From NCBI GenBank assembly GCA_030536575.1, contig JAUNPS010000021.1, positions 1 to 64,000 of the forward strand: DNA of 64,000 nt, read 5' to 3'. A program made the translations under genes and the position numbers. Source of the stretch: Eubacteriales bacterium. GTDB lineage: Bacteria; Bacillota; Clostridia; Lachnospirales; Lachnospiraceae. Each line of letters starts with the position of its first letter. Position 1 is the stretch's first letter. The notes beneath the pieces are model-generated. The model did not search any database and was not told the origin of the DNA. It saw only the letters and a program-made list of their open reading frames with translations. This document shows positions 487 through 19,030 of this stretch, one piece after another.

Positions 487-711
487 CTATCCCTCCACCA
501 TCCACGGCCTCAACTGCTTCACCAACCTCTCATCCTCCGTCACCACCATCACCGGCCTCTCATAATCAATCGCCATCAGCCCCAACACCGACTTCCCATC
601 CGCAATCTGATTATCCTTCGTATGCACCCCCACATCCATCGGCGAATTCCACGCCAAATTCATAAACTTCTGCAAATCCTCCACCGTTTCAATCTTAATA
701 TAACAAGTCAT
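487..711 (-). CDS. HPr-like protein lacking the phospho-histidine (Crh-like)
   Basis: A 74-residue protein with the HPr fold signature: an N-terminal beta strand, a helix (about residues 9-20), and the conserved segment DGKSVLGLMA (38-47). In HPr and Crh this segment carries the regulatory serine, here Ser41. The HARPA active-site loop with the phospho-accepting histidine is absent, so it should not act as a PTS phosphocarrier. In Bacillus, Crh likewise lacks the histidine and works in catabolite repression through serine phosphorylation; whether this protein does so is inference. It is the last gene of the RLP operon, 30 bp after the RLP, with AAAGGAAG as ribosome site. Its coding strand is markedly C-poor. 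Confidence 0.7.
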   Translation of the reverse strand: MTCYIKIETVEDLQKFMNLAWNSPMDVGVHTKDNQIADGKSVLGLMAIDYERPVMVVTEDERLVKQLRPWMVEG

Positions 712-741
712 CCCACTTCTTCCTTTCTTAAATATAGAATC

Positions 742-2019
742 TTACGGCTCCACATAACCCCACAGCGCAAGCGCCTCCCTCAGCTCCTGATACTCCTTCG
801 CCGCTTCCGGAACGCGCCTCCCCTGCATCACCGCATCAATCGCCTGCCGCATTGCCCTGGCCCCCGCGGCCGCTCCCATCGGATGCCCGTGAACCGCCCC
901 GCCTGCCGCCAGCACAATGTCCTTCCCAACCTCTTTCATATACTTCTCCACCATCCCCGGATGCACCCCGCCCCCAATCGACGGCATCGAAGCCTTTATT
1001 TCATAATAGGGAAGCGTAAGCTGCGCCGCCGTCTGCATATACTTCTGATACCGCAGCGGATACCCGCCATACGGCGTATTGATCATCGTAATATCCGACC
1101 CGCAAAGCCGCGCCAGCTTCCCCACCGCCAGCGGCGACCCCATCCCGCTCATCGTCCCTTCAAAAAACATCCCGCTCCCCGCCGCATGCCCCAGCACCGG
1201 AACATGCGCCTTCTCCGCCACCTGCTTCAGCACACTGTAGCCCGTCATGGCAAAATTCACCATCACCCCATCCGCACCGGCCTCTTCCGCCCGCTTCAGG
1301 TTCTCCAGAATCTCCCCGCAGCCGCTCGTAATATTCACAAAATAGGCAGCCTTCTCTCCCGTCTCCTCATAAGCAGCCTTCGCCGCCTTTTGATAAGCCC
1401 GCACCCGCTCCTGGGGACGGCTGTACTCCGGGTTTCCTAAAAGCTCATCATCCTTAATGATATCCGCGCCGCCAAGGGCCGTCTGATAAAAAATCTTCGC
1501 CCCGGCTTCCGGCGTCAGCCCGGTACACGGCTTAATCATACTGAGCAAAAGCGGCCTTTCCCGCACACCCAGCCAATCCCGAACCCCTTCACTTCCAAAC
1601 CGCGGCCCGCCAAGCTTTCTCGCAAACTCCTCCGGAAACTCGATGTCCATCAGCTTCACCTGCGCCGATGTGGACGCGTCATTCCCCAAAAGCGCAGTCA
1701 AAAGAAGCGGTATATCCCCGCCAAAATTCACAGTCGGATAAGCCAGTTGGATCACGTAATGTCTCTCGTCCCCGTCCCCCTGGGTGTTCAGATCCAGGGG
1801 CGGCACGTCAAAAACATTTACGACCTTTCCCATATACTTTTCCCGAATCTCGTCCGTAATTCCCGGAATCGGAACCCAGGTTCCTATGGTTTGTCCAATG
1901 GCAAGCGACTCTGCCTTTTTTAAGATATCCGCTTCTTTTGGAAGTTTTATATAATACGTTGCTATCGCAAAATTTTTCTTTCGGATGTTCTCCGACATTG
2001 CATACAATACCGAATCCAT
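742..2019 (-). CDS. RuBisCO-like protein (form IV), possible sugar-acid phosphate decarboxylase
   Basis: About 425 residues with the RuBisCO large-subunit layout: an N-terminal ferredoxin-like domain (about 1-130) and a TIM barrel. Seen directly: IKPCTGL (first active-site lysine kept, Lys163), the KDDE metal-ligand box (189-192; carbamylated lysine, Asp, Glu), a GGGVHPGM phosphate-loop segment and GGAVHGHPMGAAAG near the end. The second KPK lysine is Cys, Arg295 of the HR motif is Ala, and no loop-6 lysine is evident, so CO2 fixation is not expected. Known RLPs are enolases, isomerases or, in the apionate pathways, decarboxylases such as OiaX that form L-erythrulose 1-phosphate. The divergent TIM/RpiB-like pair fits that last group, but the exact reaction is inference. 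The ATG at 2019 is chosen because GGAGGAG lies 3 bp upstream; an ATG at 2031 would contain this ribosome site. Confidence 0.85.
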   Translation of the reverse strand: MDSVLYAMSENIRKKNFAIATYYIKLPKEADILKKAESLAIGQTIGTWVPIPGITDEIREKYMGKVVNVFDVPPLDLNTQGDGDERHYVIQLAYPTVNFGGDIPLLLTALLGNDASTSAQVKLMDIEFPEEFARKLGGPRFGSEGVRDWLGVRERPLLLSMIKPCTGLTPEAGAKIFYQTALGGADIIKDDELLGNPEYSRPQERVRAYQKAAKAAYEETGEKAAYFVNITSGCGEILENLKRAEEAGADGVMVNFAMTGYSVLKQVAEKAHVPVLGHAAGSGMFFEGTMSGMGSPLAVGKLARLCGSDITMINTPYGGYPLRYQKYMQTAAQLTLPYYEIKASMPSIGGGVHPGMVEKYMKEVGKDIVLAAGGAVHGHPMGAAAGARAMRQAIDAVMQGRRVPEAAKEYQELREALALWGYVEP

Positions 2020-2084
2020 AGACTCCTCCATCGGCGCAGGCGCGCCCCTATTAAGCCCGATTCCGGCATCGTAAAATGCTGAGT

Positions 2085-2795
2085 TTATAACTCCTGAAAA
2101 TAAGCGTCCGAATAATAAGGAATATCCTCCGCCCTCTTCTTCAGGTTCATCTTCAAAAGCTGTTCGATCAGTTCCCCATTCCGATCCGCCACCGCATCCA
2201 AATAACTCTGATGCTCCTTAATCATCCGCTCCCGCGCATCCATACTGTCCAACAGCTTCTGCCCATAGATCAATTTAAAGAAAGACAACGTATCCCACAA
2301 CGATTCGATCATCTCGCACACCCTGTCCAACTGGCTTGCCTTATAGATCGAAAAATGAAACAGCCGGTTCTGCTGATAAACATCGATAGCCTCCAGCTTA
2401 TCCGTCCGCACAATCCGCACATAGTCCTCCTGAATCTTCCGAAGCTTCTCAATCTCCTCTTCGGTAATCTTCTCGCAGGCATAGCGCGCCGCCACCGGTT
2501 CCAGAGCCGTCCGTGCAATGTAAATCTGCCGCACATCCTCCTTCGTCAGCGTAATCAGGCTCGTCCCCGCATAAGGCCTGGACTCCGCCAGCCCCTTCTT
2601 CTCCAGATTACTGAGCGCTTCCCGGATCGGCATACGGCTTACGCCAAACTGCGCTGCAAGCTCCTCCGTATTCAGCTTATCGCCCATCGAAAGCTTACCG
2701 CTCATGATCCACTCCATCAGTTTATCCAGAATCAGATCCGGAAGCTTACTGTGCTGAAGCATTTCATTATTCATGTCTTTCATTGTAATGCGCAT
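2085..2795 (-). CDS. GntR-family (FadR/FCD) transcriptional regulator
   Basis: About 236 residues: an N-terminal winged helix (DKLNTEELAAQFGVSRMPIREALSNLEKKG region, in short MPIREAL as recognition helix) and a helical FCD ligand-binding domain with Glu/His residues typical of acid-sugar or organic-acid sensing members. Start: ATG at 2795 is preceded by AAGGAGAGAC; the longer frame begins only with a TTG at 2819 that lacks such a site. It sits inside the operon between aldolase and RLP, so it should control its own synthesis. The palindrome ATATTGGATACAATAT at the divergent promoters (11366 and 11592) resembles known FadR-subfamily operators and is its likely target (inference). The ligand is unknown but is probably a pathway intermediate. 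Confidence 0.9.
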   Translation of the reverse strand: MRITMKDMNNEMLQHSKLPDLILDKLMEWIMSGKLSMGDKLNTEELAAQFGVSRMPIREALSNLEKKGLAESRPYAGTSLITLTKEDVRQIYIARTALEPVAARYACEKITEEEIEKLRKIQEDYVRIVRTDKLEAIDVYQQNRLFHFSIYKASQLDRVCEMIESLWDTLSFFKLIYGQKLLDSMDARERMIKEHQSYLDAVADRNGELIEQLLKMNLKKRAEDIPYYSDAYFQEL

Positions 2796-2821
2796 GTCTC
2801 TCCTTATTCTGCCTACCAATT

Positions 2822-3427
2822 TTACAACTCAAGCTTTTTTACTGCTGCCTTCAGAATCGCGATCTGTGCGGTTTCTTCCATCAGCTCCGCATTATGCTCC
2901 GCCAAAACCGCATCCTTCCCAACTGCTACCAATCCGTGATCCACCAGCAAAAATCCCGGCAGATCCGGGTTTTCCCGGTAAATTTCTTCTACCATATAAA
3001 AATATTCTTTCCCGACAACCGCCGCCGGCACATCCAGAACCGGAAGATCCGCGCAGATCTTCAGTTTCGAATGCCAGGTCGTCCTTGGAAGCACCCGATT
3101 CTTCGATGCCCAGGCAATGCAGTAAGGCGAATGGGTGTGCACGACCGCATTGACCTCCGGACAAATACGGTACAAAAAACCATGCAGCAAAGCTTCTCTC
3201 GTAGGCTTACCCTTTCCTTCTAGTAAATTTCCATCAAAATCCGTAATGAGAAATCCGTCCTCGTCACAATCCCCCAAAGAACCGCCGCTCGCCTTCACAA
3301 GCATCCGCTCCTCTCCCGGAATCCTGGCGCTGACATTCCCACCACTCCCCGTCTGAATACCTCTAGTATAAGCTCTTTTGCTTGCCGTGACAAGTTCCGC
3401 CGCTATTTTTTTTACAATTTCTTCCAA
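2822..3427 (-). CDS. Class II aldolase/adducin family protein
   Basis: 201 residues, the usual size for zinc-dependent fuculose-1-phosphate-type aldolases. Seen: a phosphate-binding-like stretch with GGNVSAR and KASGG, the zinc HxH pair in VHTHSP, a Glu in the TREALLH helix that fits the catalytic acid, and a third histidine in VDHGLVAVG. The family splits or epimerises ketose/aldonate phosphates and includes some decarboxylases. Substrate is unknown; by context it may cleave a branched or C4-C6 phosphorylated acid. The start codon is TTG with AGAGGTGG about 8 bp upstream. Spacing of 26-30 bp to both neighbours places it in the operon. Confidence 0.88.
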   Translation of the reverse strand: MEEIVKKIAAELVTASKRAYTRGIQTGSGGNVSARIPGEERMLVKASGGSLGDCDEDGFLITDFDGNLLEGKGKPTREALLHGFLYRICPEVNAVVHTHSPYCIAWASKNRVLPRTTWHSKLKICADLPVLDVPAAVVGKEYFYMVEEIYRENPDLPGFLLVDHGLVAVGKDAVLAEHNAELMEETAQIAILKAAVKKLEL

Positions 3428-3457
3428 GTTTTCCCACCTCTTTTTCGATTTTCTTCT

Positions 3458-4690
3458 TCATAAAACGCCGCGTTCCTTCAGCTCTTCCGCCATAAAATGC
3501 GCGGCCTGAATTCCCCATTCTTTCGTGTCCAGATTCCCCGGAATGGTGATGCATGCAATGTTTGGATTCCGGACGCTGCCGATTTTCCGGGTCAAAATCT
3601 CGTCCACTTTCCTGCAGTACAGCTCTTCTCCCTTTCGGGTATTGTGCCGCATGCCGTCCGTAGGAATCAGAAGCTTCACCGGATAATCGATCTTTTCCAG
3701 CCGTTCCAGCACCCGATCCGCCAGTTTTTCCGCCTCATCCGGCAGAATCTTGATATGCGCCATCTCCGCATTGTGATACATAAACACCCGTTCTTCCATC
3801 CGCGGCAGAAACGCATCCGGCGCAAAATCCACGAAATCCAGCCCGCCCAGGCTGATCACCAGCGGAATCCGGTTCCGCACGCTCTTCACCAGCCGGTTTT
3901 TCGCTTCCCTGCTGTAAGAAAAGCCGCCCCCGAAAAATTCCGATGTCAGCTCATGGATCGTCAAATCCAAAATACCGTCAAGCAGGCCATCCTCCGCCAT
4001 CTGCTCCATCACCACTCCGCCCGTTCCGGTCGCATGGAACCCAACCACTTCCAATCCCATGCGCTCCAGCTCTTCCGCGGCGGCACAGGCCCCCGTATTC
4101 GTCACGCCCATCAGCGTCATTCCTACAACCGGCCTGTCCCCTTTCTCCAACACCCGTCCCGCCGTTCGAACCATCCCCGCACAGCAGGCACAGGCATTGT
4201 CCAAAATCCGCCGGATCACCAGATTCATCCCGGTAAAATCACAAATCGAAGGAATCATCACGATATCCTTTTCTCCGACAAAAGGCCCGAACGTCCTTCC
4301 GCCGCACGCCACCGTCGTGGCCATCACTTTCGGAAACCCAATCGGCAGACTGCGCATTGCATTGGTCGCCATCACCGTATTCTGCAGGCCGCCTGCTGCC
4401 AGAATGCCGTCGATTTTTCGGGCTTTATAAAGCATTTCCACGTATTTTGTCACCGCATCCGTCATCAAGCGAATTTTTTCACCCTTCGTCTTCGACGCCA
4501 TTTCCTCCATGGACACCCCAGCAGACTTCAGGATTTCTTCCCTGGAAACGTCATACCCGTAAGACATGCCCGGCCCCGTGGCCGTATCGAGCACCAGCAC
4601 CCGGAGCCCCTCCGTTTCGATGCGCTCCCGCATATAGGCAACTTCCCTGTATTTCGTGTCACAGCTCCCAATGACCGCAATCGTCTTCAT
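3458..4690 (-). CDS. Tm-1-like ATP-binding protein (UPF0261)
   Basis: 410 residues, full length for the family. Motifs visible: the N-terminal GSCDTK nucleotide-type motif (8-13), a glycine-rich AAGGLQNT, ACGGRTFGP, and the conserved FHATGTGG in the second Rossmann-like half, which is the Tm-1 ATP-binding signature. The biochemical role of bacterial members is not settled; they are common in operons for sugar-acid or aromatic breakdown, often with TIM-barrel partners. A part in activating or rearranging the pathway substrate with ATP is possible but is inference. It lies 19 bp after the MBL gene and 30 bp before the aldolase, clearly co-transcribed. Confidence 0.85.
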   Translation of the reverse strand: MKTIAVIGSCDTKYREVAYMRERIETEGLRVLVLDTATGPGMSYGYDVSREEILKSAGVSMEEMASKTKGEKIRLMTDAVTKYVEMLYKARKIDGILAAGGLQNTVMATNAMRSLPIGFPKVMATTVACGGRTFGPFVGEKDIVMIPSICDFTGMNLVIRRILDNACACCAGMVRTAGRVLEKGDRPVVGMTLMGVTNTGACAAAEELERMGLEVVGFHATGTGGVVMEQMAEDGLLDGILDLTIHELTSEFFGGGFSYSREAKNRLVKSVRNRIPLVISLGGLDFVDFAPDAFLPRMEERVFMYHNAEMAHIKILPDEAEKLADRVLERLEKIDYPVKLLIPTDGMRHNTRKGEELYCRKVDEILTRKIGSVRNPNIACITIPGNLDTKEWGIQAAHFMAEELKERGVL

Positions 4691-4709
4691 TGCATCACCC
4701 CGCTTCTAT

Positions 4710-5714
4710 CTAGCCGAAATATTTCGTTTCCGCTTTCTTCGCCGCTTTCTGCGCATCTTTCTCAATAATCGCGCCCTTGTATTCCTCAAACACGAAATCC
4801 GTGTCCTTCCGGCCGATTACCGGAATCTGATTATCATGCGCACACTCATATTTTTCCACCGCCGCCGACAAAATCACGTCATGCGCCAGCAATAAATGCT
4901 TATGCGGGTCTACGCCAGCCTCCTTACAGCGGCGCACCGTATCGCGAATCGTTTCCCACGCCGCCACAATATCCACGAAACGTCCCGGCGGGCAGATATC
5001 ATAATGCAGGTCGTCCTGCATGGCCTGCGGCGCATCCACATTTCCCATTACAAACACCGAATCGCCCACGCAGAAATACGGCCCATCCTCCGTTTCCACA
5101 ACCACCGTCATATGGCCGGGGCAATGTCCAAAGGACTCAAACACGCTGATTCCCGGAAGAATTTCCGTCTCACCCTTCACCGTCTCGAAGCGCTCTTTCA
5201 CTCCCGGAATATCATACGGCGCAACAAATTCCCCTCCGTAAGTCACATCTCCATCCTTCGCAATAATCGGCCGGCAGTACGATTTGTAATGCAGCGGAAT
5301 CGGATTATGCGCATAATTCCACTCCGTTTCATGGCAGATAAACCGCGCCTTCGTAAATTTCTCCAGGTAGAATACATGATCCCAGTGCAAGTGTGTAAAT
5401 AATACAATATCCACATCCGCGGGTTTATACCCCACCTGCGCCAGCCGGGACTCAATATCGTCAATCCCCGGCCTCTGCATGGACGGCCCGTGATGATACT
5501 TATCCGCATGCTCGTTCCAGGACATCCCCGTATCCACGAGCACCAGCTTCTCCCCTCCCTCGATCAGAAACGTAAAATCCGGAAGCTGGTCGGATTCGTT
5601 CGTAATTCCCAGTTTCTCCACATATTTTTTGCATGAAAAATGATACCAGTATTCCAGTGGTTTTGTCGGAATGTAGCCGGAATTCAACGGCCGGATTGTC
5701 AATGTCATCTTCAA
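4710..5714 (-). CDS. MBL-fold metallo-hydrolase (AHL-lactonase-like family)
   Basis: 334 residues. The metallo-beta-lactamase zinc motif HLHWDH is at 108-113, followed by a histidine in GHCPGH, the bridging Asp in GDSV and a final His in LLAHD, so both metal sites look intact. There is no signal peptide, so it acts in the cytoplasm. The closest recognisable group is the AiiA-like lactonases. Because the operon handles a sugar acid (by RLP context), ring opening of a sugar lactone is a reasonable hypothesis; quorum quenching is an alternative I consider less likely. The ribosome site AGAGGT lies 9 bp before the ATG. Confidence 0.85.
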   Translation of the reverse strand: MKMTLTIRPLNSGYIPTKPLEYWYHFSCKKYVEKLGITNESDQLPDFTFLIEGGEKLVLVDTGMSWNEHADKYHHGPSMQRPGIDDIESRLAQVGYKPADVDIVLFTHLHWDHVFYLEKFTKARFICHETEWNYAHNPIPLHYKSYCRPIIAKDGDVTYGGEFVAPYDIPGVKERFETVKGETEILPGISVFESFGHCPGHMTVVVETEDGPYFCVGDSVFVMGNVDAPQAMQDDLHYDICPPGRFVDIVAAWETIRDTVRRCKEAGVDPHKHLLLAHDVILSAAVEKYECAHDNQIPVIGRKDTDFVFEEYKGAIIEKDAQKAAKKAETKYFG

Positions 5715-5744
5715 TTACCTCTCTTCCTCATTCTGTTTCGGAGA

Positions 5745-6704
5745 TCAGCTCGCGCTTCGCTCCTGCCTTTTTTTATTCTGAATGTCGAACGTCACCATCG
5801 CAATAATGACAACGCCCACAACCATTCCCTGTGCAAACGACGAGACGCCCTTCAGATTCATCACATTTACAATGATTGTCAACATCAGCGCCCCGACGAC
5901 CGTCCCAATCACGCCTCCTTCGCCTCCAAGCATCGACGTGCCGCCGATTACCACCGCAGCCACCGTCTGAAGCCCGTAGCTGTCGCCCATTGCCGCATCC
6001 GCCGCATTGAGCCGCGCCGTCATCAGCATTCCTGCAACCCCAGCCGTCATACTGCACATCATAAATGCGGATATCATAATCTTTTTCACCGGGACCGCAG
6101 AATATTTCGCCGCCGTCGGATTCGAACCATAGGTGTAAACCTGCCGTCCATACGTCGTTCTTTGCAGTAAAATGTAGATAATCGTCACGATAATTGTCGC
6201 AATGATAACCAAATTCGGGATCGGCCCCACATATCCCACCGCAATATTCGTAAACCCTTCCGGCAGGTTATAAATCACCGCACCCCGCATCACAATTACC
6301 GCAAGCCCGCTCATCACCCAGTTTGTACCGTAGGTAGCGATAAAACTCGGCAGAAATCCGGCCAAAATCCCATTGACCAGACCGACCGCCGCGCCGATGC
6401 CGATTCCAATCAGAAAGCACACCGGGACCGGAATCCCCGCCTTCAGGCACTGGGCGCAGATGCATCCGATAAAACCGGCGGTTGCTCCCACGGAAAGATC
6501 CATTCCGCCGATCAGGAGAACTGCCGTCAGCCCGGAACTTAAAATCAGCAGGACGCTGGCCTGGCGCAGGATCGTGATCAGGTTATTGAACGTCCGGAAA
6601 TTCGGCGCAATGATCGCCGCGACCAGTACCAGCAGAATCAGCCCGACCAGACTGTAAAAAACCTTCGCACTCTTTATTTTTTCATAAATGCTCTTTGCCT
6701 TCAT
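5745..6704 (-). CDS. Sugar ABC transporter permease (RbsC/YtfT type)
   Basis: 319 residues, highly hydrophobic, with about eight to ten membrane segments. It carries the BPD_transp_2 family features: GGMDLSVGATAG near residue 70, GSNPTAAKYSAV in the cytoplasmic loop, and VVIGGTSMLGGEG near the C terminus. It forms a heterodimeric channel with the permease encoded just upstream (13-bp gap) and is driven by the ATPase at 7651-9180. The substrate is most likely a pentose- or tetrose-sized sugar or sugar acid used by the operon enzymes. Confidence 0.93.
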   Translation of the reverse strand: MKAKSIYEKIKSAKVFYSLVGLILLVLVAAIIAPNFRTFNNLITILRQASVLLILSSGLTAVLLIGGMDLSVGATAGFIGCICAQCLKAGIPVPVCFLIGIGIGAAVGLVNGILAGFLPSFIATYGTNWVMSGLAVIVMRGAVIYNLPEGFTNIAVGYVGPIPNLVIIATIIVTIIYILLQRTTYGRQVYTYGSNPTAAKYSAVPVKKIMISAFMMCSMTAGVAGMLMTARLNAADAAMGDSYGLQTVAAVVIGGTSMLGGEGGVIGTVVGALMLTIIVNVMNLKGVSSFAQGMVVGVVIIAMVTFDIQNKKRQERSAS

Positions 6705-6716
6705 GCGCGCTCCCCC

Positions 6717-7667
6717 CTATTCTTTCTCTCTGAGACGGACAGCCGCATCGAGCACTATCGCCGCCAGTACAATGGTTCCAATGATCGCATTCTGGTAAAT
6801 GGCTCCTACGCCGCACACATTCAGCCCGTTTTTAATCACCTGAATCAACAGCACGCCGAAAATCGTCCCGGTAACATTTCCTTTTCCTTCCCGCAGCGAA
6901 GTGCCGCCCAGAAGGGTCGCCGCCACCGCCTGAAATTCCCATCCGGCTGCCACGGTGGGCTGTCCGGACTCTACCCGGCAAAGGGTGACAATTCCCGCAA
7001 TTCCGGCGATAAATCCCGCAAACGCGAACGTCTGAATCTGGCATTTCGCCGGATGAAGCCCGGCCAGAACCATCGCCTCCCGGTTTCCGCCAAGGGCGTG
7101 AATGTTTGTGCCAAATTTCGTCTTATTCAGCACTACCCACACCAGGACAAACATTGCAGCGGCAATCCAGACCATCACCGGAAACCCAAGGATTTTCACC
7201 TCTGTCACCACCAGATAACCAGGGCTGAAAATATAAATGGAAGAACCCGCTGTCAGCATCAGCGAAATACTGTTCACAATATTCTGCATCCCATAAGTGG
7301 CGATAAACGGCGGCACATTCCCTTTCGCAACGACAATCCCGTTCACCGCGCCCACCAGCACCACCGCCAGGACGCCTGCGAGCATTGCCAGTCCCATCGG
7401 AACGCCCCGTTGTGCGAGCCACACGATAAAAACCGTGGTAAAGCTCACCTGCGCCCCCAGGGATAAATCCGTCCCCTGCGTCAGAACCACGCATGTCTGG
7501 CCAAACGCCAGAATCATCAGCGGCGTTGCCTGAATCAGGACATTGCGGAAATTTGAAAAGGAAAAATAGCTTGGTTCTATGATACTGAATACAAGTATTA
7601 ATAAAATCAGCAGATAGGCCACCGGAGGAATCTGTTTCAGCCGTTCCTTTCTAATCGCTTTCTGCAT
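6717..7667 (-). CDS. Sugar ABC transporter permease (RbsC type)
   Basis: About 316 residues of BPD_transp_2 type, with QGTDLSLGAQVS, GGNREAMVLAGL and LLGGTSLREGKG as the conserved membrane-loop motifs. The ATG at 7667 is preferred over a GTG at 7676 because GGGAGGTG lies just upstream of the ATG. Its start overlaps the 3' end of the ATPase gene, a sign of translational coupling. It is the partner of the permease at 5745-6704; the two differ enough that this is a true heterodimer. Confidence 0.92.
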   Translation of the reverse strand: MQKAIRKERLKQIPPVAYLLILLILVFSIIEPSYFSFSNFRNVLIQATPLMILAFGQTCVVLTQGTDLSLGAQVSFTTVFIVWLAQRGVPMGLAMLAGVLAVVLVGAVNGIVVAKGNVPPFIATYGMQNIVNSISLMLTAGSSIYIFSPGYLVVTEVKILGFPVMVWIAAAMFVLVWVVLNKTKFGTNIHALGGNREAMVLAGLHPAKCQIQTFAFAGFIAGIAGIVTLCRVESGQPTVAAGWEFQAVAATLLGGTSLREGKGNVTGTIFGVLLIQVIKNGLNVCGVGAIYQNAIIGTIVLAAIVLDAAVRLREKE

Positions 7668-9180
7668 GCGGCTCACCTCCCGTTCCCAGCATCATCCGCG
7701 TACCGATCGCATCCGAATTAAAATCCTCCGAACCGCGTGTTACCTCATCGACAATCGTTCCCTCATGCATGATATAAATGCGGTCGCTCATCCCGATGAC
7801 CTCCGGAAGCTCCGAAGAAATCATAAGCAATGCCTTGCCCTGGGCCGCCAGCTTGTCCATCAGGCTGTAGATTTCCATTTTCGCCGCCACGTCGATGCCG
7901 CGGGTAGGCTCGTCGAAAATCAGGATATCCGGGTCGAAGCTCAGCCATTTCGCCAGCACGACTTTCTGCTGGTTGCCGCCGGACAGGTATTTGCAGGCTT
8001 TGTCTACGCTTGTGGTGGCAATGCGGAGCTGTTTTTTATACGTCAGCGCCGTCTCCCGGATTTTTCGGTTTGACAGGAAAAATTTCGGGCAGATCTTTTT
8101 CAGGCTGACTGCGGAGATATTCAGCGCCACGGATTCATCCAGCGCTAACCCCTGCTTTTTCCGGTCTTCCGTGACCAGGCCGATTCCCATTTTCGTTGCC
8201 TGGATCGGAGATTTGGGATTCACCGGCTTTTCATTGACATAAATCTGCCCGGATTTGATGGGCGAAATGCCGTAAAGCAGTTCCGCCGTCTCCGTGCGCC
8301 CGGCGCCGACCAGCCCGGCGATGCCGACGATCTCTCCTTTTTTCACGGAAAGCGTCACATTTTTAACCCGCCCTTTCTGATCACACAGATTTTCTGTCCG
8401 CAGGGCAATGCCGCTGTGTGCGTTTTCCGTGCGCACATACACCTGGGAAACGTCCCGGCCGACCATCATATTTACCAGTTCTTCGTTGGTACAATCTCCG
8501 ATTCCGACGGTTTTGATCTTCACGCCGTCCCGCAGGATCGTGATTCGGTCGCCGATCAGCGGAAATTCCTGCATTCTGTGCGAAACATAAATGATGCCGA
8601 TCCCCTCCGCTTTCAGCCTGTGAATCTGCACAAACAGAGATTCCACTTCCCGGTCGGACAGGGTGGCCGTGGGCTCGTCAAAGACCAGAATCCGCGGTTT
8701 GAAGGACAATGCTTTTGCAATTTCTACCATCTGCTGTTCTGCAACGCTTAAATTTTTCACGTCGCTTTTTACATCGATCTGTTCGCAGTTTAAACTTTTT
8801 AACAGCTCGCGGGCCTCCCGCTCCATGCGTTTCTTGTCGAGAAATCCCGCTTTCGTCTTATATTCCCGGTTCAGGAAAATATTCTGCGCGACGCTGATAT
8901 ACGGAACCAGCGTAAATTCCTGGTAAACCGCGGCAATGCCTTTTTCCAGCGCTTCTTTCGTCCCATGAAAGTTTACCGGCTGTCCGTCCAGGGTAATCTC
9001 GCCTTCATCCGCCTTGTAGGCCCCCAGGATCACCTTTGCGAGGGTGCTTTTTCCGGCGCCGTTCTCACCCACCAGAATGTGGACTTCCCCTGCCCGCAGG
9101 TCAAAATCCACATTGTCCAGAGCTTTCATGCCCGGAAAACGCTTGGTAATCCCGCGCGCCGTTAATATGGTCTCCCCCAT
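7651..9180 (-). CDS. Sugar ABC transporter ATP-binding protein (RbsA/MglA type, two ATPase domains)
   Basis: About 509 residues with two nucleotide-binding domains in tandem. The first has a canonical Walker A (GENGAGKST), signature LSVAEQQ and Walker B (ILVFDEPTA). The second has the usual degenerate Walker A (GLVGAGRTE), signature LSGGNQQ and ILIFDEPTRG. This split of one active and one weaker site is normal for the family. Start ATG at 9180 follows GGGAGGTGAAGCC; an ATG at 9195 would contain that site. It powers the two permeases that follow. Confidence 0.95.
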   Translation of the reverse strand: MGETILTARGITKRFPGMKALDNVDFDLRAGEVHILVGENGAGKSTLAKVILGAYKADEGEITLDGQPVNFHGTKEALEKGIAAVYQEFTLVPYISVAQNIFLNREYKTKAGFLDKKRMEREARELLKSLNCEQIDVKSDVKNLSVAEQQMVEIAKALSFKPRILVFDEPTATLSDREVESLFVQIHRLKAEGIGIIYVSHRMQEFPLIGDRITILRDGVKIKTVGIGDCTNEELVNMMVGRDVSQVYVRTENAHSGIALRTENLCDQKGRVKNVTLSVKKGEIVGIAGLVGAGRTETAELLYGISPIKSGQIYVNEKPVNPKSPIQATKMGIGLVTEDRKKQGLALDESVALNISAVSLKKICPKFFLSNRKIRETALTYKKQLRIATTSVDKACKYLSGGNQQKVVLAKWLSFDPDILIFDEPTRGIDVAAKMEIYSLMDKLAAQGKALLMISSELPEVIGMSDRIYIMHEGTIVDEVTRGSEDFNSDAIGTRMMLGTGGEPHAESD

Positions 9181-9201
9181 GGCTTCACCTCCCATTCCGG
9201 T

Positions 9202-10227
9202 TTATGCCCCGCATTTTCCAAAGGCCCTTCCGGCCTCTACGAAAGCTTTCAGATTCTCTACGGGCGTATTCGTGTTAATTTCACAGCCGGAACCCAGGAA
9301 AAATTTTTTCTTCGTCCCTTCCTGGGCCAGAAGCGCCCGCACCGTTTCCCGGATTTCCTCCGGCGTCCCCAGCGCGAAAAGGGCCGGGTCTACATTGCCC
9401 CGATAAATCTTGTCCGGCACGACGCTCCGCAGGCGGTCGATGTCGCATACGTGGTCAAAATCGATCACATCCGATCCGTTCTGCGCAATTACGTCGACAA
9501 TTTTTTCAATGTTTCCGCAAATGTGCGTACACGCCTTCGCCCCGTGATCGTGGATTGCGCGAACCAGTTTCTGTTCGTAGGGAAGCGCGAATTCCAGGTA
9601 GCAATTTTTTGAAATGACGTTCTGGGACGCTGTCGCATGGCCGTAAGCAATCATATCGGCCCCTGCTTCAATCATTGCCGCCGCATACGTACAGGCGACT
9701 TCGGTGCATTTTTCCAGAAGAACGTGGACTTCCTCCGGTTCTTCCAGAAGCGTCACCAGCAGTTCATCCAGGTTATAGAGCTGGCCTGCGACGTTTAACG
9801 GGCCGTTTGTCCAGCCCATGATAAAAGCTTCTTCGCCGATTTCCCGCTTTACGATGCGGATTGCTTCGATGACGGTTTTCATCGGCTCCGTGGTGTATGG
9901 GTCTGGTACTTTTACCTTATCCACTTCGCTGATATCGTTCAGTAAGTATTTCTTTAAAATGCCCGGCGCATTTTCCGGTTGTTCGTAAATGGTTCCCAGC
10001 GCTTTTCCTTCGCTGGAAATGTCGGTATGAATGGACACGCCGTCCCAGCCGAATTTCCGATAGGCGCTGATGCACGCCCGCGCCATGCATTTGGGGTCTG
10101 TCATGTATTCCCTGACGGTCATGCCTTCGCAGGCCAGTACATTGGCAAAGGCAATTTTCGGAAAGATGGGCGTCGTGTCAGGCTGTTCTCCGGCAAAGAC
10201 CGCTAAAATCCGTTCTCTGGCGTTCAT
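9202..10227 (-). CDS. MtaA/UroD-family protein with zinc-type HxC...C site (methyltransferase-like)
   Basis: About 341 residues of the uroporphyrinogen decarboxylase superfamily. Unlike heme UroD it keeps the zinc ligands of corrinoid:thiol methyltransferases such as MtaA: His235-x-Cys237 (in THICGN) and Cys315 (in GSGCEINTNTP). No corrinoid protein or substrate methyltransferase is in the window, so the methyl donor is unknown. It stands between the binding-protein and ATPase genes, that is, within the transporter part of the operon, suggesting a step on the imported compound, for example demethylation of a methylated sugar. ATG at 10227 is chosen: AAGGAGGGACAGT precedes it, and the longer frame runs into the upstream hairpin. 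Confidence 0.82.
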   Translation of the reverse strand: MNARERILAVFAGEQPDTTPIFPKIAFANVLACEGMTVREYMTDPKCMARACISAYRKFGWDGVSIHTDISSEGKALGTIYEQPENAPGILKKYLLNDISEVDKVKVPDPYTTEPMKTVIEAIRIVKREIGEEAFIMGWTNGPLNVAGQLYNLDELLVTLLEEPEEVHVLLEKCTEVACTYAAAMIEAGADMIAYGHATASQNVISKNCYLEFALPYEQKLVRAIHDHGAKACTHICGNIEKIVDVIAQNGSDVIDFDHVCDIDRLRSVVPDKIYRGNVDPALFALGTPEEIRETVRALLAQEGTKKKFFLGSGCEINTNTPVENLKAFVEAGRAFGKCGA

Positions 10228-10246
10228 ACTGTCCCTCCTTCTAAGG

Positions 10247-10280
10247 AAAACTGCCGCATACAAACGTATCCGGCAGTTTT
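10247..10280 (-). terminator. Intercistronic hairpin after the binding-protein gene
   Basis: AAAACTGCCG and CGGCAGTTTT form a perfect 10-bp stem around a 14-nt loop, ending in four U on the minus strand. It lies between the binding-protein stop (10291) and the ribosome site of the next gene. As in other binding-protein operons it may partly stop or protect the transcript, giving more binding protein than membrane parts. Confidence 0.6.
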
Positions 10281-10290
10281 GAATCATCGG

Positions 10291-11334
10291 TTATTCCGTT
10301 TTCCACCAGGCAATGTTCTCGATGTAATTGTCAACGCTTTCGCTGGTAATGACCGGATCGTCCCTTTCCGACGGGAACGGGATAAAGTTTTCTTCCGGTT
10401 CGGTTCCGTCGTTCAGATATTGAACGAGGTAGGCGCTCGCCACGTAGCAGGAACCGTAGGGGTCTGTATTGTAGGAGGCGAAGAGTTCGCCGTTCTGGAT
10501 GGCGGCGCTGGCGTCCTGGTTTCCGTCGAAACCGACGATCACAACGTCTTCCATTCCGGCGGCTTTTACGGCCTGGTAGGCGCCCAGGGCGGATTCGTCA
10601 TTGCAGGCAATGATCGCGCTGACGTCGCCGTATTTCTGGATCAGGTTTTCGGTTACATTAATACCTTCGGTACGTTTAAAGTTTGCGGTCTGGGAGGCTA
10701 CGACTTCGATATCCGGATAGATATCCAGGACTTCATTGATGCCGTTCAGACGCTCGATGGCGTTCTGTGCTCCCGGAGGGCCCTCCAGAATGATGACGGT
10801 TCCTTTGCCGCCCAGTTCTTCGGCCACTTTTTCCGCGATGACGCGGCCGGTTTCGGTGTAGTCTACGCCAGTTCGCATGAAGGTTTCTTCTGCGGCCGGG
10901 GTGCCGATGCAGACGATCGGGATGCCGGCTTCTTTGGCTTTGCGCACGCCGGGCATGATGCCGTTACTGTCTACGGGAACGAGGACGAAGCCGTCTACGC
11001 CGGATTCGATCAGGTCTTCCATGATTTTGATCTGTTCTTCGACGGAATCATTGGTGGACGGGGCCATGGTGATCGCTTCAAAGCCCATGTCTTCCCCGGC
11101 TTTTTTCACGCCGTTGATGCAGCCCATCATGTAGGGGTTCGTGGAATTTTTCACGATGCAGGCGATCTTGTATTCTTCGTTCGCCTCCAGGTCTGTCGTG
11201 ATCGATGTGCCGATCCCGGTGGTGGGAAGGGTGATTTCGGCTGCTGCGCTCGTGTCCGCTTCGGCGGATGCTCCTGTGAACGACGCTGCTCCCAGTAACA
11301 TCACAGCCATGAAACATGCCATCTTCTTTTTCAT
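10291..11334 (-). CDS. Sugar ABC transporter substrate-binding protein (RbsB type)
   Basis: 347 residues: an N-terminal signal peptide (KKK then a hydrophobic stretch, likely cut near residue 24 after GASA) and a periplasmic-binding-protein type I domain with KNSTNPYMMG, DGFVLVPVDS, PIVCIGTPA and IVGFDGNQDA, the usual ribose-binding-family positions. No lipobox cysteine is visible at the cleavage site. It is the first gene of the twelve-gene operon. AAGGAGGT lies 6 bp before the ATG. The promoter is at 11393-11421 with an operator at 11366-11381. Confidence 0.93.
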   Translation of the reverse strand: MKKKMACFMAVMLLGAASFTGASAEADTSAAAEITLPTTGIGTSITTDLEANEEYKIACIVKNSTNPYMMGCINGVKKAGEDMGFEAITMAPSTNDSVEEQIKIMEDLIESGVDGFVLVPVDSNGIMPGVRKAKEAGIPIVCIGTPAAEETFMRTGVDYTETGRVIAEKVAEELGGKGTVIILEGPPGAQNAIERLNGINEVLDIYPDIEVVASQTANFKRTEGINVTENLIQKYGDVSAIIACNDESALGAYQAVKAAGMEDVVIVGFDGNQDASAAIQNGELFASYNTDPYGSCYVASAYLVQYLNDGTEPEENFIPFPSERDDPVITSESVDNYIENIAWWKTE

Positions 11335-11365
11335 TCGGATACCTCCTTTTTTGCTGTTCCAAAAT

Positions 11366-11381
11366 ATATTGGATACGATAT
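11366..11381. promoter_or_regulatory. GntR-type operator, copy 1
   Basis: ATATTGGATACGATAT is an imperfect palindrome (ATATTG/CGATAT around GATA) and matches the copy at 11592 at 15 of 16 bases. It lies 12-27 bp downstream of the -10 box of the minus-strand promoter, where a bound repressor would block transcription. Short TTGTATnCAA-like palindromes are typical of FadR-subfamily GntR regulators, and one is encoded in this operon. Confidence 0.65.
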
Positions 11382-11392
11382 TTTACATTTCA

Positions 11393-11421
11393 ACCATAAC
11401 ATCGTTTATCGGATTTGTCAA
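11393..11421 (-). promoter_or_regulatory. Promoter of the RLP/sugar-uptake operon
   Basis: Minus strand: TTGACA (11421-11416), 17-bp spacer, TATGGT (11398-11393). The ATG of the first gene is about 60 bp downstream. The near-consensus -35 suggests a strong promoter held down by a repressor. Confidence 0.75.
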
Positions 11422-11567
11422 TCAATTTCCGGATTAATGTTCCTTATTTCATGATTTTAACTAATTTTCATCTTTTGAATTTGTTAATTTTAACAATATA
11501 CGTGATTTTTCGCCCCTCTTTTTCACAATTTTGTCTGATTTTTTGTGGTTTCTTTTTCAGGAAAGGA

Positions 11568-11596
11568 TTGCAATCCGGAAGGGGTTGTGTTATATT
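11568..11596 (+). promoter_or_regulatory. Promoter of the TIM-like/RpiB-like pair
   Basis: TTGCAA (11568-11573), 17-bp spacer, TATATT (11591-11596). The operator copy at 11592 overlaps the -10 box, so regulator binding would exclude RNA polymerase. It diverges from the operon promoter 150 bp away. Confidence 0.7.
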
Positions 11597-11618
11597 GGAT
11601 ACAATATAAAATATTGTA
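11592..11618. promoter_or_regulatory. GntR-type operator, copy 2, with overlapping palindrome
   Basis: ATATTGGATACAATAT (11592-11607) repeats the site at 11366. Its right half also starts a second, perfect palindrome: TACAATAT (11600-11607), AAA, ATATTGTA (11611-11618). Both cover the transcription start region and end just before the ribosome site GGAGGGG. Two overlapping half-site pairs would allow two regulator dimers or a stronger single site. Confidence 0.65.
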
Positions 11619-11628
11619 AGGAGGGGCT

Positions 11629-12414
11629 ATGAGGAAAAAACTGTATTTTGGGAGCAACTTTAAGATGTATAAGGACGGCCGGGCGACGCGGGAGTATTTG
11701 CAGGCGATGATGGAGGCGGTCGGGCAGATTGACCGGGAGAGAGTACAGTTCTTTTTTATTCCGTCGTTTACTTCTCTGGAGAGCGCTGCCCGGTGCGAGG
11801 CGCGGGAGGCGTTTTTGCTGGGGGCGCAGAATATGTGCTGGGAGGAGGAAGGACAGTTTACCGGGGAGATTTCGCCGGGGATGCTGAAGGAACTTGGAGT
11901 GGATCTGGTGATGGTGGGGCACTCGGAGCGGCGGCATGGGTTTGGGGAGACGGATGAGATGGTGAACCGGAAGGTGCGGAAGGCTTTGGAATGGGGGTTT
12001 ACGACGCTGCTGTGCGTGGGGGAGACGGCTTCGGAGAAGGAGTTTGGGGTTAGTGTGGAGACGCTTCGCAGACAGCTTAAGATTGGGCTGCATGGGGTGA
12101 CGGAGGAGCAGGTTGGGAAGGTGTGGATTGCTTATGAGCCGGTGTGGTCGATTGGGGTACAGGGGACGCCGGCGCCGGTGGATTATGCGCAGGAGATGCA
12201 TCGGGAGATTCGTGGGTGTTTGGGGGAGTTGTTTGGGGAGATGGGACGGGAGATTCCGGTGCTTTATGGAGGGAGTGTGAATGCGGGGAATGGGGTGGAT
12301 TTGATTACGCAGGAGGATATTGATGGGTTGTTTACGACGCGGACGGCGTTTCAGGTGGAGAGCTTTGCGGGGTTAATTCAGAAGGCGGTGAGTGCGGTCG
12401 AGACGCTCTCCTGA
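11629..12414 (+). CDS. tpiA: Triose-phosphate-isomerase-like protein, probable tetrulose-phosphate isomerase
   Basis: 261 residues with the full TIM catalytic set: Asn10 and Lys12 (SNFKMYK), His98 (GHSERR), Glu170 (YEPVWSIG) and the phosphate-loop YGGSV. The loop after PVW reads SIGVQGTPA instead of the glycolytic AIGTGKTAT. That difference, and the pairing with an RpiB-like gene, point to the EryH/LerI-type paralogues that convert L-erythrulose 1-phosphate to D-erythrulose 4-phosphate. The symbol names the family only; glycolytic TIM cannot be excluded from sequence alone. It is transcribed from an operator-controlled promoter divergent from the RLP operon. The second half of the gene is strikingly poor in C on the coding strand. 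Confidence 0.85.
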   Translation: MRKKLYFGSNFKMYKDGRATREYLQAMMEAVGQIDRERVQFFFIPSFTSLESAARCEAREAFLLGAQNMCWEEEGQFTGEISPGMLKELGVDLVMVGHSERRHGFGETDEMVNRKVRKALEWGFTTLLCVGETASEKEFGVSVETLRRQLKIGLHGVTEEQVGKVWIAYEPVWSIGVQGTPAPVDYAQEMHREIRGCLGELFGEMGREIPVLYGGSVNAGNGVDLITQEDIDGLFTTRTAFQVESFAGLIQKAVSAVETLS

Positions 12415-12426
12415 CGCCGGGCGTGC

Positions 12427-12540
12427 GGTACGTGGCGCACCTGGCGACGGGCCGGACGGCCCTGCGGTGTGATACGTGGCTCACCTAGCGGCGGGACGGG
12501 CGGCCCTGCGGCGTAATGCGCGCCTTCGCGGCGGGACGCG
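12427..12540. repeat. 44-bp GC-rich tandem repeat after the TIM-like gene
   Basis: Two similar 44-bp units (from 12429 and 12473), both with TACGTGGC and CGGCCCTGCGG, are followed by a shortened third copy (from 12517). The array begins about 13 bp after the stop codon and fills most of the spacer before the RpiB-like gene. No coding function is evident. Confidence 0.75.
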
Positions 12541-12617
12541 CGACGAATGATTTTCACGGATGTTTTGGCAGATCGCCGCAACACAGTAATATAGTATTTT
12601 TGCAAAGGAGGTTCTTT

Positions 12618-13058
12618 ATGAAGATTGCAATTGGATGCGACCCAAATGCGCAGAAAGAAAAAGAAGATTTGATTCGTTTTATTGAGGAAAAAGGGTTCGG
12701 GGATGTGACGGATTTTGGGAGTGACGACCCGGTTTATGCGAATGTTGCGATTCGGGTGGGGGAGGCAGTGGCTTCCGGGGAATTTGATCGTGGAATTTTG
12801 ATTTGTGGGACTGGAATCGGCGTTTCCATTGCGGCTAACAAGGTGAAAGGCGCTTATGCTGCCCTGCTTACGGATTTCTATTCCGCCCAGCGGGCCCGTT
12901 TAAGCAATGACGCGAACATTGCCTGCATGGGCGCGTTCACCACCGGAAGCAAGGAACGTGAAGTTATGATTACCGAATTTCTGACCCAGGAATTCGTACC
13001 GGGCTGCAGTTCTCAGCCGAAAGTCGATGCTTTTGTAAAATATGATGAAGAGCGGTGA
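12618..13058 (+). CDS. rpiB: RpiB/LacAB-family sugar-phosphate isomerase
   Basis: 146 residues, normal for RpiB. The active-site segment CGTGIGVSIAANK is present (catalytic-type Cys followed by the anion-hole GTGIG), as are the N-terminal GCDPNA and the C-terminal region ending FVKYDEER. Start ATG at 12618 follows AAAGGAGG by 7 bp; an in-frame upstream extension would be in the GC repeat and is rejected. The family acts on ribose 5-, galactose 6- or erythrulose 4-phosphate. Paired with the TIM-like gene, the EryI/DerI reaction (D-erythrulose 4-phosphate to D-erythrose 4-phosphate) is most likely; this is inference. Confidence 0.88.
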   Translation: MKIAIGCDPNAQKEKEDLIRFIEEKGFGDVTDFGSDDPVYANVAIRVGEAVASGEFDRGILICGTGIGVSIAANKVKGAYAALLTDFYSAQRARLSNDANIACMGAFTTGSKEREVMITEFLTQEFVPGCSSQPKVDAFVKYDEER

Positions 13059-16218: not shown

Positions 16219-16433
16219 TATTTTCCATCCTCTTTTCATACCTTGTCGCGTGAGCGCCCGCTCGAAAGAGCATGCATTACGGTATACCTGAAGGTATCCC
16301 TTACCGCGTCAGCGCCCTCCCGCCCGGAAGCGCATGCCGCCCCTCCGCAGCCAGGTACGAATCTTCCGTCAAAATTCACCCCGCTTCCGCCGCGCCGGCT
16401 CCCCGGCACGGCATTTACGGAATGCAAAGCTCT

Positions 16434-18983: not shown

Positions 18984-19001
18984 GATTTCGTCTCCTTTTA
19001 G

Positions 19002-19030
19002 CATAAAAGGCTGGCTATAACAGCCAGCCT
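19002..19030 (-). terminator. Hairpin between binding-protein and GH3 genes
   Basis: On the minus strand AGGCTGGCTG and the complementary TAGCCAGCCT form a 9-10-bp stem, followed by TTTTAT. It comes 17 bp after the binding-protein stop and just before the GH3 ribosome site. Partial read-through would give high binding protein and lower enzyme levels. Confidence 0.75.

Follow-up and report, generated by a model that had tools for sequence, protein, structure and literature searches.

Organisation of the locus

The stretch analysed here (the window) comprises the initial 64 kb of a contig 74 kb long from the draft genome of a Lachnospiraceae bacterium, and between positions 487 and 13058 it holds an operon for a RuBisCO-like protein (RLP) together with, on the opposite strand, paralogues of triose-phosphate isomerase (TIM) and of RpiB. 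The RLP belongs to a clade, marked by an IKPCTG motif, that is well supported as distinct from both OiaX—itself an RLP, and reportedly a 3-oxo-isoapionate-4-phosphate decarboxylase—and the methionine-salvage enolase MtnW, and RLP, TIM, and RpiB very probably serve one pathway. All named genes are open frames with matches to the stated families in profile comparisons (Pfam and NCBIfam), which bears out a preliminary description, made from the DNA letters, of an operon with a sugar importer, a metallo-β-lactamase (MBL) hydrolase, a Tm-1-like protein, a class II aldolase, and an MtaA-like protein. The features are listed by position in the window (L and G numbers denote compared loci and genomes):

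487-711, minus strand: 74-residue frame 3′ of the RLP gene, HPr-like by eye, without a family match in Pfam or NCBIfam
742-2031, minus strand: RLP of the IKPCTG-motif clade (PF00016, 163.6 bits)
2085-2819, minus strand: GntR/FCD regulator (PF07729 and PF00392), adjoining the RLP gene in type A loci
2822-3427, minus strand: class II aldolase-family enzyme (PF00596), with Glu where the AraD of L268 has Asp in the alignment
3458-4690, minus strand: UPF0261 (Tm-1-like) protein, candidate kinase (PF06792 and PF23189)
4710-5714, minus strand: MBL-fold hydrolase, candidate sugar lactonase (PF00753, 71 bits)
5745-9195, minus strand: ATP-binding cassette (ABC) importer of two BPD_transp_2 permeases (PF02653 twice) and an ATPase (PF00005), kept in relatives
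9202-10287, minus strand: URO-D/MtaA-like protein, accessory (PF01208, 245.1 bits)
10291-11334, minus strand: Peripla_BP_4 sugar-binding protein (PF13407, 204.1 bits)
11366-11381, no strand assigned: operator-like palindrome 5′ of the RLP operon (1 mismatch to ATATTGGATACAATAT)
11592-11607, no strand assigned: operator-like palindrome 5′ of the TIM gene (ATATTGGATACAATAT, 0 mismatches)
11629-12414, plus strand: TIM paralogue, putatively LerI-type (PF00121)
12516-13058, plus strand: frame of the RpiB paralogue, putatively DerI/EryI-type, probable start 12618 (PF02502; Ser for the ring-opening His)

The minus-strand genes are ordered binding protein, URO-D/MtaA-like protein, ABC ATPase, two permeases, MBL hydrolase, UPF0261 protein, class II aldolase, GntR/FCD protein, RLP, and the 74-residue frame, copies of which (60%–67% identical) also follow the RLP in L050, L051, L054, L058, and L111. 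Beyond this frame lie tRNA-Ser (223-310) and then the start of the contig, which suggests that this is where the operon ends. The gene set is found again in other genomes and is therefore not a product of chance; its URO-D/MtaA-like gene has, among the loci compared, a close copy (72%) only in L091/L033. The GntR/FCD protein is the probable regulator of the locus. The RpiB frame probably begins at 12618, shortly ahead of the Pfam match.

A distinct clade of RuBisCO-like proteins

As described previously, the RLP carries the KDDE box (K193–E196) and lacks RuBisCO Lys177, the position of which is taken by Cys169; it thus lacks one of the three lysines (Lys175, Lys177, and Lys201) that form the criterion for RuBisCO forms I–III. 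One genome from each species was scanned with two conserved patterns, which returned 67 loci (L050–L116), mostly from Bacillota, with a few from Actinomycetota and one from a Chloroflexota metagenome-assembled genome (MAG); such a scan returns only loci that match at least one of the patterns, and the clade may therefore be larger. The clade alignment has 67 rows, comprising 66 of these loci and the window (L112, with a partial RLP, was left out). All 67 rows share N117, K167, C169, K193, D195, E196, and H282 (window numbering), and all retain RuBisCO Lys175, Lys201, Asp203, Glu204, and His294. The invariance of Asn117 is partly selected, since the loci were collected with two alternative patterns and this residue is part of one of them; Asn117 is, however, also present in 11 distant rows and in 11 rows found by protein search. 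At the position of MtnW Lys98, all 67 clade rows and 11/11 distant rows have Asn, as in RuBisCO, versus Lys in 3/3 MtnW proteins. The Lys177 position is Cys in the same 67 and 11 rows, Ala or Ser in OiaX, and Val or Met in MtnW. Arg295 is present in no clade row, and one RuBisCO phosphate site has therefore probably been lost. In MtnW, Lys98 is a catalytic residue.

None of the six NCBIfam models listed for the window RLP reaches its cut-off; among them are the MtnW model TIGR03332 (312.4 bits; cut-off 513.6), a second enolase model (344.8 bits; cut-off 409), and the OiaX model NF042437 (187.5 bits; cut-off 700). The best matches of this RLP in the PDB are MtnW. Clade rows occupy one side of a branch with support of 99 in a quick tree of 90 rows and 100/99 in a careful 38-row tree with 18 clade rows, and the latter tree places the clade on the MtnW side (98/99). 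A single clade uniting the window group with OiaX and DUF1537-linked RLPs is rejected (approximately unbiased (AU) test, p 0.0074), and one with the more distant Lachnospiraceae RLPs is not (AU p 0.154). These trees have long branches, exclude the distant or fragmentary L021–L026 and L029, and were built without R. rubrum-type RLPs. Assignment to OiaX, the type named in the preliminary description, is ruled out by cut-off, residues, and tree; assignment to MtnW is ruled out by cut-off, by the replacement of Lys98 with Asn, and by the tree.

Distant RuBisCO-superfamily matches (L021–L025; 29%–32% identity) occur in other genomes of the family. No relative of the RLP was found on viral contigs in a scan with patterns drawn from this single protein. 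Searches of the open-access literature found no account of this clade, and none joining RuBisCO-like protein, gut, and Lachnospiraceae.

Linkage of the RLP to TIM and RpiB paralogues

The divergent TIM and RpiB-family genes are both confirmed on the plus strand and are extra paralogues, since better-scoring copies of TIM (315 bits) and RpiB (211 bits) are each found on another contig of the same genome. Across 68 loci (the 67 pattern-scan loci and the window), TIM is found no farther than 10 kb from the RLP in 39 and RpiB in 38 (37 of them within this distance, with that of the window at 10.6 kb); within 3 kb, each is found in 30/68. Both accompany the RLP in 33 loci and either does so in 44. 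When the count is limited to loci flanked by 5 kb or more on each side (44 loci), TIM is found in 30, RpiB in 28, both in 26, and either in 32. The same search around more distant RLPs found TIM/RpiB in one of ten neighbourhoods (L043). In L065, L070, L074, and L091, RpiB and TIM lie within the run of MBL, UPF0261, aldolase, GntR, and RLP genes, and in L059, L060, L062, and L073, they directly follow the RLP.

Among 397 sampled genomes of the family, the TIM paralogue (E ≤ 1e-75) is present in 11/11 genomes with a clade RLP (at least 52% identity) versus 16/386 others, and the TIM type is present in 17/22 genomes with the RpiB type versus 10/375 others; both thresholds (E ≤ 1e-75 for TIM and about 1e-57 for RpiB) were picked after inspection of the match lists. 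A quick tree gathers 31 linked and 19 unlinked TIMs into one Bacillota group with support of only 85. The TIMs of L086, L100, L102, L105, L109, L113, and L115 fall outside this group, a hint that recruitment took place more than once. Both this tree and the signature count below omit the partial TIM of L066, and the count thus covers 38 of the 39 loci.

Residue signatures of the isomerases

Both isomerase signatures were read off references and then counted, rather than fixed in advance. The canonical RpiB histidine (His99 in E. coli) is proposed to protonate the ring oxygen, and its loss lowers kcat 26-fold in E. coli and 10-fold in T. cruzi and abolishes activity in Leishmania (PMC4783025). 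This ring-opening position is Ser in all 36 linked RpiBs longer than 120 residues (36 of 38 loci, frames shorter than 121 residues having been left out); Ser is likewise present in two RpiBs from erythritol-type loci and in the one encoded by an OiaX operon. For L124 and L126, EryH and EryI are names given here because the annotated genes around them follow an erythritol-type order. D-erythrose 4-phosphate is chemically unable to form the ring in question. In 12 related genomes, the top-scoring RpiB has His in 11 (the twelfth was not parsed), as does the better copy of the window genome; a further 18 RpiB copies comprise 14 with Ser (some not RLP-linked), one with His, two with Val, and one with Gly. 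L286 was not parsed. Against the rhizobial DerI/EryI model NF051858, the window RpiB scores 118.2 bits, below the cut-off of 240.

Canonical TIMs read DGGLVGG where linked TIMs, references, and PDB 11ef read DGLF. The signature position is Phe in 38/38 linked TIMs and 4/4 references and Leu in 14/14 canonical TIMs, three distant TIM-like rows (L221, L222, and L224) being left out of the canonical count. The loop-6 Pro (GxPA) is present in 36/38 linked TIMs, 4/4 references, and 0/14 canonical TIMs, and is shared by 19 unlinked paralogues; beside the signature, the window TIM departs from the others (FTTRTAF). PDB 11ef, named L-erythrulose-1-phosphate isomerase, is the second-best match of the window TIM (178.8 bits), after a T. 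maritima-type TIM (185.7 bits). The LerI/EryH references stand apart from the linked Bacillota TIMs, with no shared clade, in a quick tree read without a formal test.

LerI and DerI have been shown to act in series, converting L-erythrulose 1-phosphate to erythrose 4-phosphate (PMC10733421). The TIM and RpiB of the window locus very probably act on tetrulose phosphates. The lower half proposed in the preliminary description, in which these isomerases lead to D-erythrose 4-phosphate, therefore stands, backed by the tetrulose signatures, the linkage to the RLP, and a Rhizobium OiaX operon with the same half. Ser for His in RpiB and DGLF/GxPA in TIM may also help annotation to separate tetrulose-phosphate isomerases from those of ribose and triose phosphates.

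A shared palindrome

The palindrome ATATTGGATACAATAT is found exactly at 11592, about 35 bases 5′ of the TIM gene, and with one mismatch at 11366, about 34 bases 5′ of the binding-protein gene. When up to three mismatches are allowed, the 64 kb contain five matches against an expected 0.33, and these are both strands of the two sites plus one match at 1995. Its 12-base core, with at most one mismatch, coincides with or closely precedes the called start of the binding-protein gene in eight of the ten type A loci with an available promoter region (present in L050, L052, L053, L057, L058, L061, L074, and L111; absent from L103 and L116); L065 and L091 begin inside the binding-protein gene. The core was found in none of four Erysipelotrichaceae loci scanned (L064, L068, L071, and L073).

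Upstream modules

The remaining genes vary among the 68 loci: UPF0261 is present in 39, FGGY kinase in 14, a galactitol-family phosphotransferase system (PTS) in 13, a phosphoenolpyruvate (PEP)-hydrolase-like gene in 12, an amidohydrolase in 11, a GlpA-like dehydrogenase in eight, and a 2-hydroxyacid dehydrogenase in two, with 28 loci being without a class II aldolase. L092 has FGGY kinase, 2-hydroxyacid-dehydrogenase-family, RLP, TIM, and RpiB genes in a row, and L109 has FGGY, dehydrogenase, TIM, and RLP genes together on a single strand, RpiB being close by on the opposite strand.

The window UPF0261 protein has both Pfam domains (185.9 and 182.6 bits). The family profile matches Tm-1 structures with up to 326.6 bits; its close relatives of solved structure are Tm-1 and a single UPF0261 protein for which no function is stated, and no account of a UPF0261 reaction was found in the open-access literature. 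UPF0261 and PTS occur together in 0/68 loci, and UPF0261 is joined by any known phosphorylating system in five; 34 loci have UPF0261 only, 23 a known system only, and six neither (raw Fisher 4e-8). This mutual exclusion is not significant once relatedness is allowed for (sign test on the tree, median p 0.25, with too few independent pairs) and is kept as a hint. A further comparison covered nine stretches in which isomerases of the LerI and DerI types are encoded apart from an RLP: their kinases are DAK (L225), DUF1537-type with PdxA (L228, as well as L230 and L233, which have TIM only), and UPF0261 (L226 and L232), and none was identified in L227, L229, and L231. Module distribution and this kinase context, taken together, make UPF0261 a reasonable, albeit tentative, candidate for a sugar-acid kinase. 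UPF0261 genes also recur with PEP-hydrolase-like, Na/sulfate-symporter-family, and arylsulfotransferase genes in L272–L275 and L279, stretches without an RLP. The LerI-type TIM of L228, L230, and L233, with its DUF1537-type kinase and PdxA, perhaps belongs to an oxidative route from a C5 acid.

For the MBL hydrolase, the best NCBIfam model is 4-pyridoxolactonase (81.5 bits; cut-off 325), and equivalence with the MBL enzyme of the Agrobacterium OiaX locus is ruled out by an identity of only 24% (E 9e-7). The aldolase retains the Glu, HxH, and third His of annotated OtnC, AraD having Asp for Glu in the alignment, and it scores 87.9 bits against the OtnC model (cut-off 250). DUF1537 is matched in just one of the 68 loci (L105, not the window), and one PF07005 gene lies elsewhere in the window genome. 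Genes of the ApnL, ApnO, and OiaK kinds, already reported as missing, are likewise not among the identified genes of the locus. RLP operons with a UlaG-type MBL-group gene occur in six Erysipelotrichaceae MAGs (L064, L066, L068, L071, L072, and L073); the one such gene that was scored reaches 590 bits as L-ascorbate-6-phosphate lactonase (cut-off 306). The window operon genes have no match to a dehydrogenase family in Pfam or NCBIfam, and the substrate is thus probably a lactone or oxo-acid, to which the Erysipelotrichaceae lactonase-type genes also point.

Outside the locus, an apiosidase-like glycoside hydrolase gene (14698-16239; PF13204, 63.7 bits) adjoins a GH3 gene (16434-19004). An origin of the substrate from apiose by way of this gene was considered and dropped: the protein has no match in the other loci searched, and its neighbours are the GH3 gene and another binding-protein-like frame.

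Proposed pathway and alternatives

We read the locus as a sugar-acid catabolic operon, the lower half of which makes D-erythrose 4-phosphate and the RLP of which decarboxylates a branched 3-oxo-acid phosphate, a reading that could equally prove right or wrong as a whole. The ABC importer would take up a lactone or oxo-acid, with the MBL enzyme opening an imported lactone, and phosphorylation would follow, possibly by UPF0261. The RLP would then decarboxylate 3-oxo-isoapionate 4-phosphate or a near analogue to L-erythrulose 1-phosphate, which the TIM paralogue, as a LerI-type enzyme, would convert to D-erythrulose 4-phosphate and the RpiB paralogue, as a DerI-type enzyme, to D-erythrose 4-phosphate. 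The gene set, the RLP–TIM–RpiB coupling, the isomerase signatures, and the palindrome come from sequence and context, and from them we infer the RLP reaction, kinase, lactonase, and substrate. That the RLP is a decarboxylase yielding L-erythrulose 1-phosphate has, in our estimation, about an even chance; chemically, decarboxylation to this product would require the carboxylate to sit on the carbon that adjoins the ketone opposite to the phosphate side, and for this reason the substrate should be a branched acid.

Several observations weigh against this reading. Neither TIM nor RpiB is found in the available DNA of 24/68 loci (12 of the 44 with at least 5 kb flanks), the same isomerase types occur in genomes without a clade RLP, the TIM near the RLP in L050, from Muricomes intestini DSM 29489, has no palindrome, and the tree gives the window RLP a descent other than that of OiaX. 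In L226 and L232, MBL, UPF0261, aldolase, and GntR genes stand with TIM, RpiB, and a KdgT-type importer but no RLP, and a search at E ≤ 0.001 finds no RLP anywhere in G323, the genome of L226. L268 (genome G256) combines an ABC importer, aldolase, MBL, and UPF0261 with L-ribulose-5-phosphate 3- and 4-epimerases (3-epimerase 410.7 bits, cut-off 200; AraD 403.6 bits, cut-off 389.1). The aldolase–MBL–UPF0261 trio is also complete in L266, L269, and L270 (L265 is without MBL and L267 without aldolase), none of these five having a linked RLP and four of them adjoining acid-importer-type genes. The trio may thus supply ketose phosphates without an RLP, and the aldolase may be a decarboxylase, which could leave the RLP as an isomerase before it.

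It is accordingly conceivable, although we think it unlikely, that the RLP works ahead of decarboxylation, as an isomerase or enolase, and that an OtnC-like class II aldolase removes CO2 from the 3-oxo-acid phosphate. The trio of L226, L232, and L268, the OtnC-like residues of the aldolase, and the position of the RLP on the MtnW side, where the known chemistry is enolisation, would all fit; the weak OtnC score and the 28/68 RLP loci in which no class II aldolase is seen, including L109 and the FGGY/GlpA-like L101, L104, L106, and L113 (some on short contigs), argue otherwise. A more doubtful alternative has an ascorbate-like lactone opened by MBL, phosphorylated by UPF0261, and decarboxylated, with RLP, TIM, and RpiB as a four-carbon (C4) version of the UlaE/UlaF branch. 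L268, with the same trio and both epimerase-type genes above cut-off, and the six Erysipelotrichaceae loci with one MBL group point in this direction, as does the dehydrogenase-free window operon, the substrate of which should already be at an ascorbate-like oxidation level. A linear C5 analogue, however, would give D-erythrulose 4-phosphate directly and make TIM superfluous, and no UlaG-type match is found among the window operon genes. L268 may itself encode a non-PTS ascorbate-type pathway.

Ordinary triose- and ribose-phosphate isomerase activity of the TIM and RpiB paralogues is very improbable given their residue signatures, the better-scoring copies elsewhere in the genomes, and the co-occurrence of the two paralogues (17/22 versus 10/375), even if the closest TIM relatives (74%) adjoin PdxA and DUF1537-type kinase genes (L230 and L233, with another TIM in L228), a set that elsewhere ends in dihydroxyacetone phosphate. 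Least probable of all is that the RLP is the methionine-salvage enolase MtnW. Grouping with such enolases, which would have spoken against the preliminary description, holds by half: the RLP is placed on the MtnW side of the tree, alongside the best PDB matches; against the MtnW assignment, the score falls short of its cut-off (312.4 versus 513.6 bits), Lys98 is replaced by Asn in 67/67 rows, and no neighbour is called mtn by cut-off.

Beyond the preferred decarboxylase pathway, a wider and, in our view, unlikely proposal is that the IKPCTG RLPs are a second, independently evolved RuBisCO-like decarboxylase, joined several times, with varied importers and kinases, to the LerI/DerI pair, and that UPF0261 is a new sugar-acid kinase family serving them.

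Significance

The reaction is known for very few RuBisCO-like proteins (PMC10176493). The linkage gives a whole RLP clade a testable metabolic place: a C4 ketose phosphate is expected as its product, which the isomerases would pass on to D-erythrose 4-phosphate. Because the clade and OiaX are separate in the tree, any reaction common to both would have arisen by convergence within a single fold and would reveal the residues that set decarboxylation. The clade occurs in some gut Clostridia and related bacteria and, to judge by the genes around it, probably helps to turn an unusual sugar acid into a common C4 sugar phosphate. The UPF0261 family is common to bacteria and plants (PMC5028733) and also makes up part of plant Tm-1, and the link reported here offers a functional hypothesis for this shared family.

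Comparison with known systems

The closest parallel is a Rhizobium OiaX operon: in Rhizobium sp. NZLR1 (L125), annotated oiaX, four-carbon acid sugar kinase, TIM, and RpiB genes are consecutive, and the window clade thus seems to combine this lower half with an RLP that has a different ancestry. Among three OiaX loci compared, TIM and RpiB are nearby only in L125. Shared features are an RLP adjoining tetrulose-phosphate-type TIM and RpiB, sugar ABC importer genes, and, in Agrobacterium (L122), a gene annotated as N-acyl homoserine lactonase family (MBL) immediately ahead of OiaX. The window locus differs in the descent of its RLP (AU p 0.0074), in having Asn and Cys where OiaX has Gly and Ala/Ser, and in having UPF0261 and a class II aldolase instead of DUF1537 kinase and ApsD-, ApnL-, or ApnO-type genes among those identified.

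MtnW (2,3-diketo-5-methylthiopentyl-1-phosphate enolase) is the nearest characterised RLP, with Lys175, the KDDE box, and His294 kept in common, but Lys98 is Asn in the clade, KPC replaces the KGM/KGV of MtnW, and mtn neighbours are absent by cut-off. The RLP-linked isomerases have the residue signatures of both EryH/LerI and EryI/DerI, whereas the linked Bacillota TIMs stand apart from the proteobacterial LerI references in the quick tree. OtnK–OtnC, the kinase/decarboxylase pair of the L-threonate pathway, likewise has a class II aldolase-family enzyme within a sugar-acid operon; in the window, UPF0261 takes the place of the DUF1537 kinase, and the OtnC model stays below cut-off. Finally, UlaABC-, UlaD-, and UlaG-type matches are absent among the window operon genes, yet the logic of lactonase, acid phosphate, and epimerase is that of the Ula (L-ascorbate) system, and the related locus L268 ends in Ula-type epimerases.

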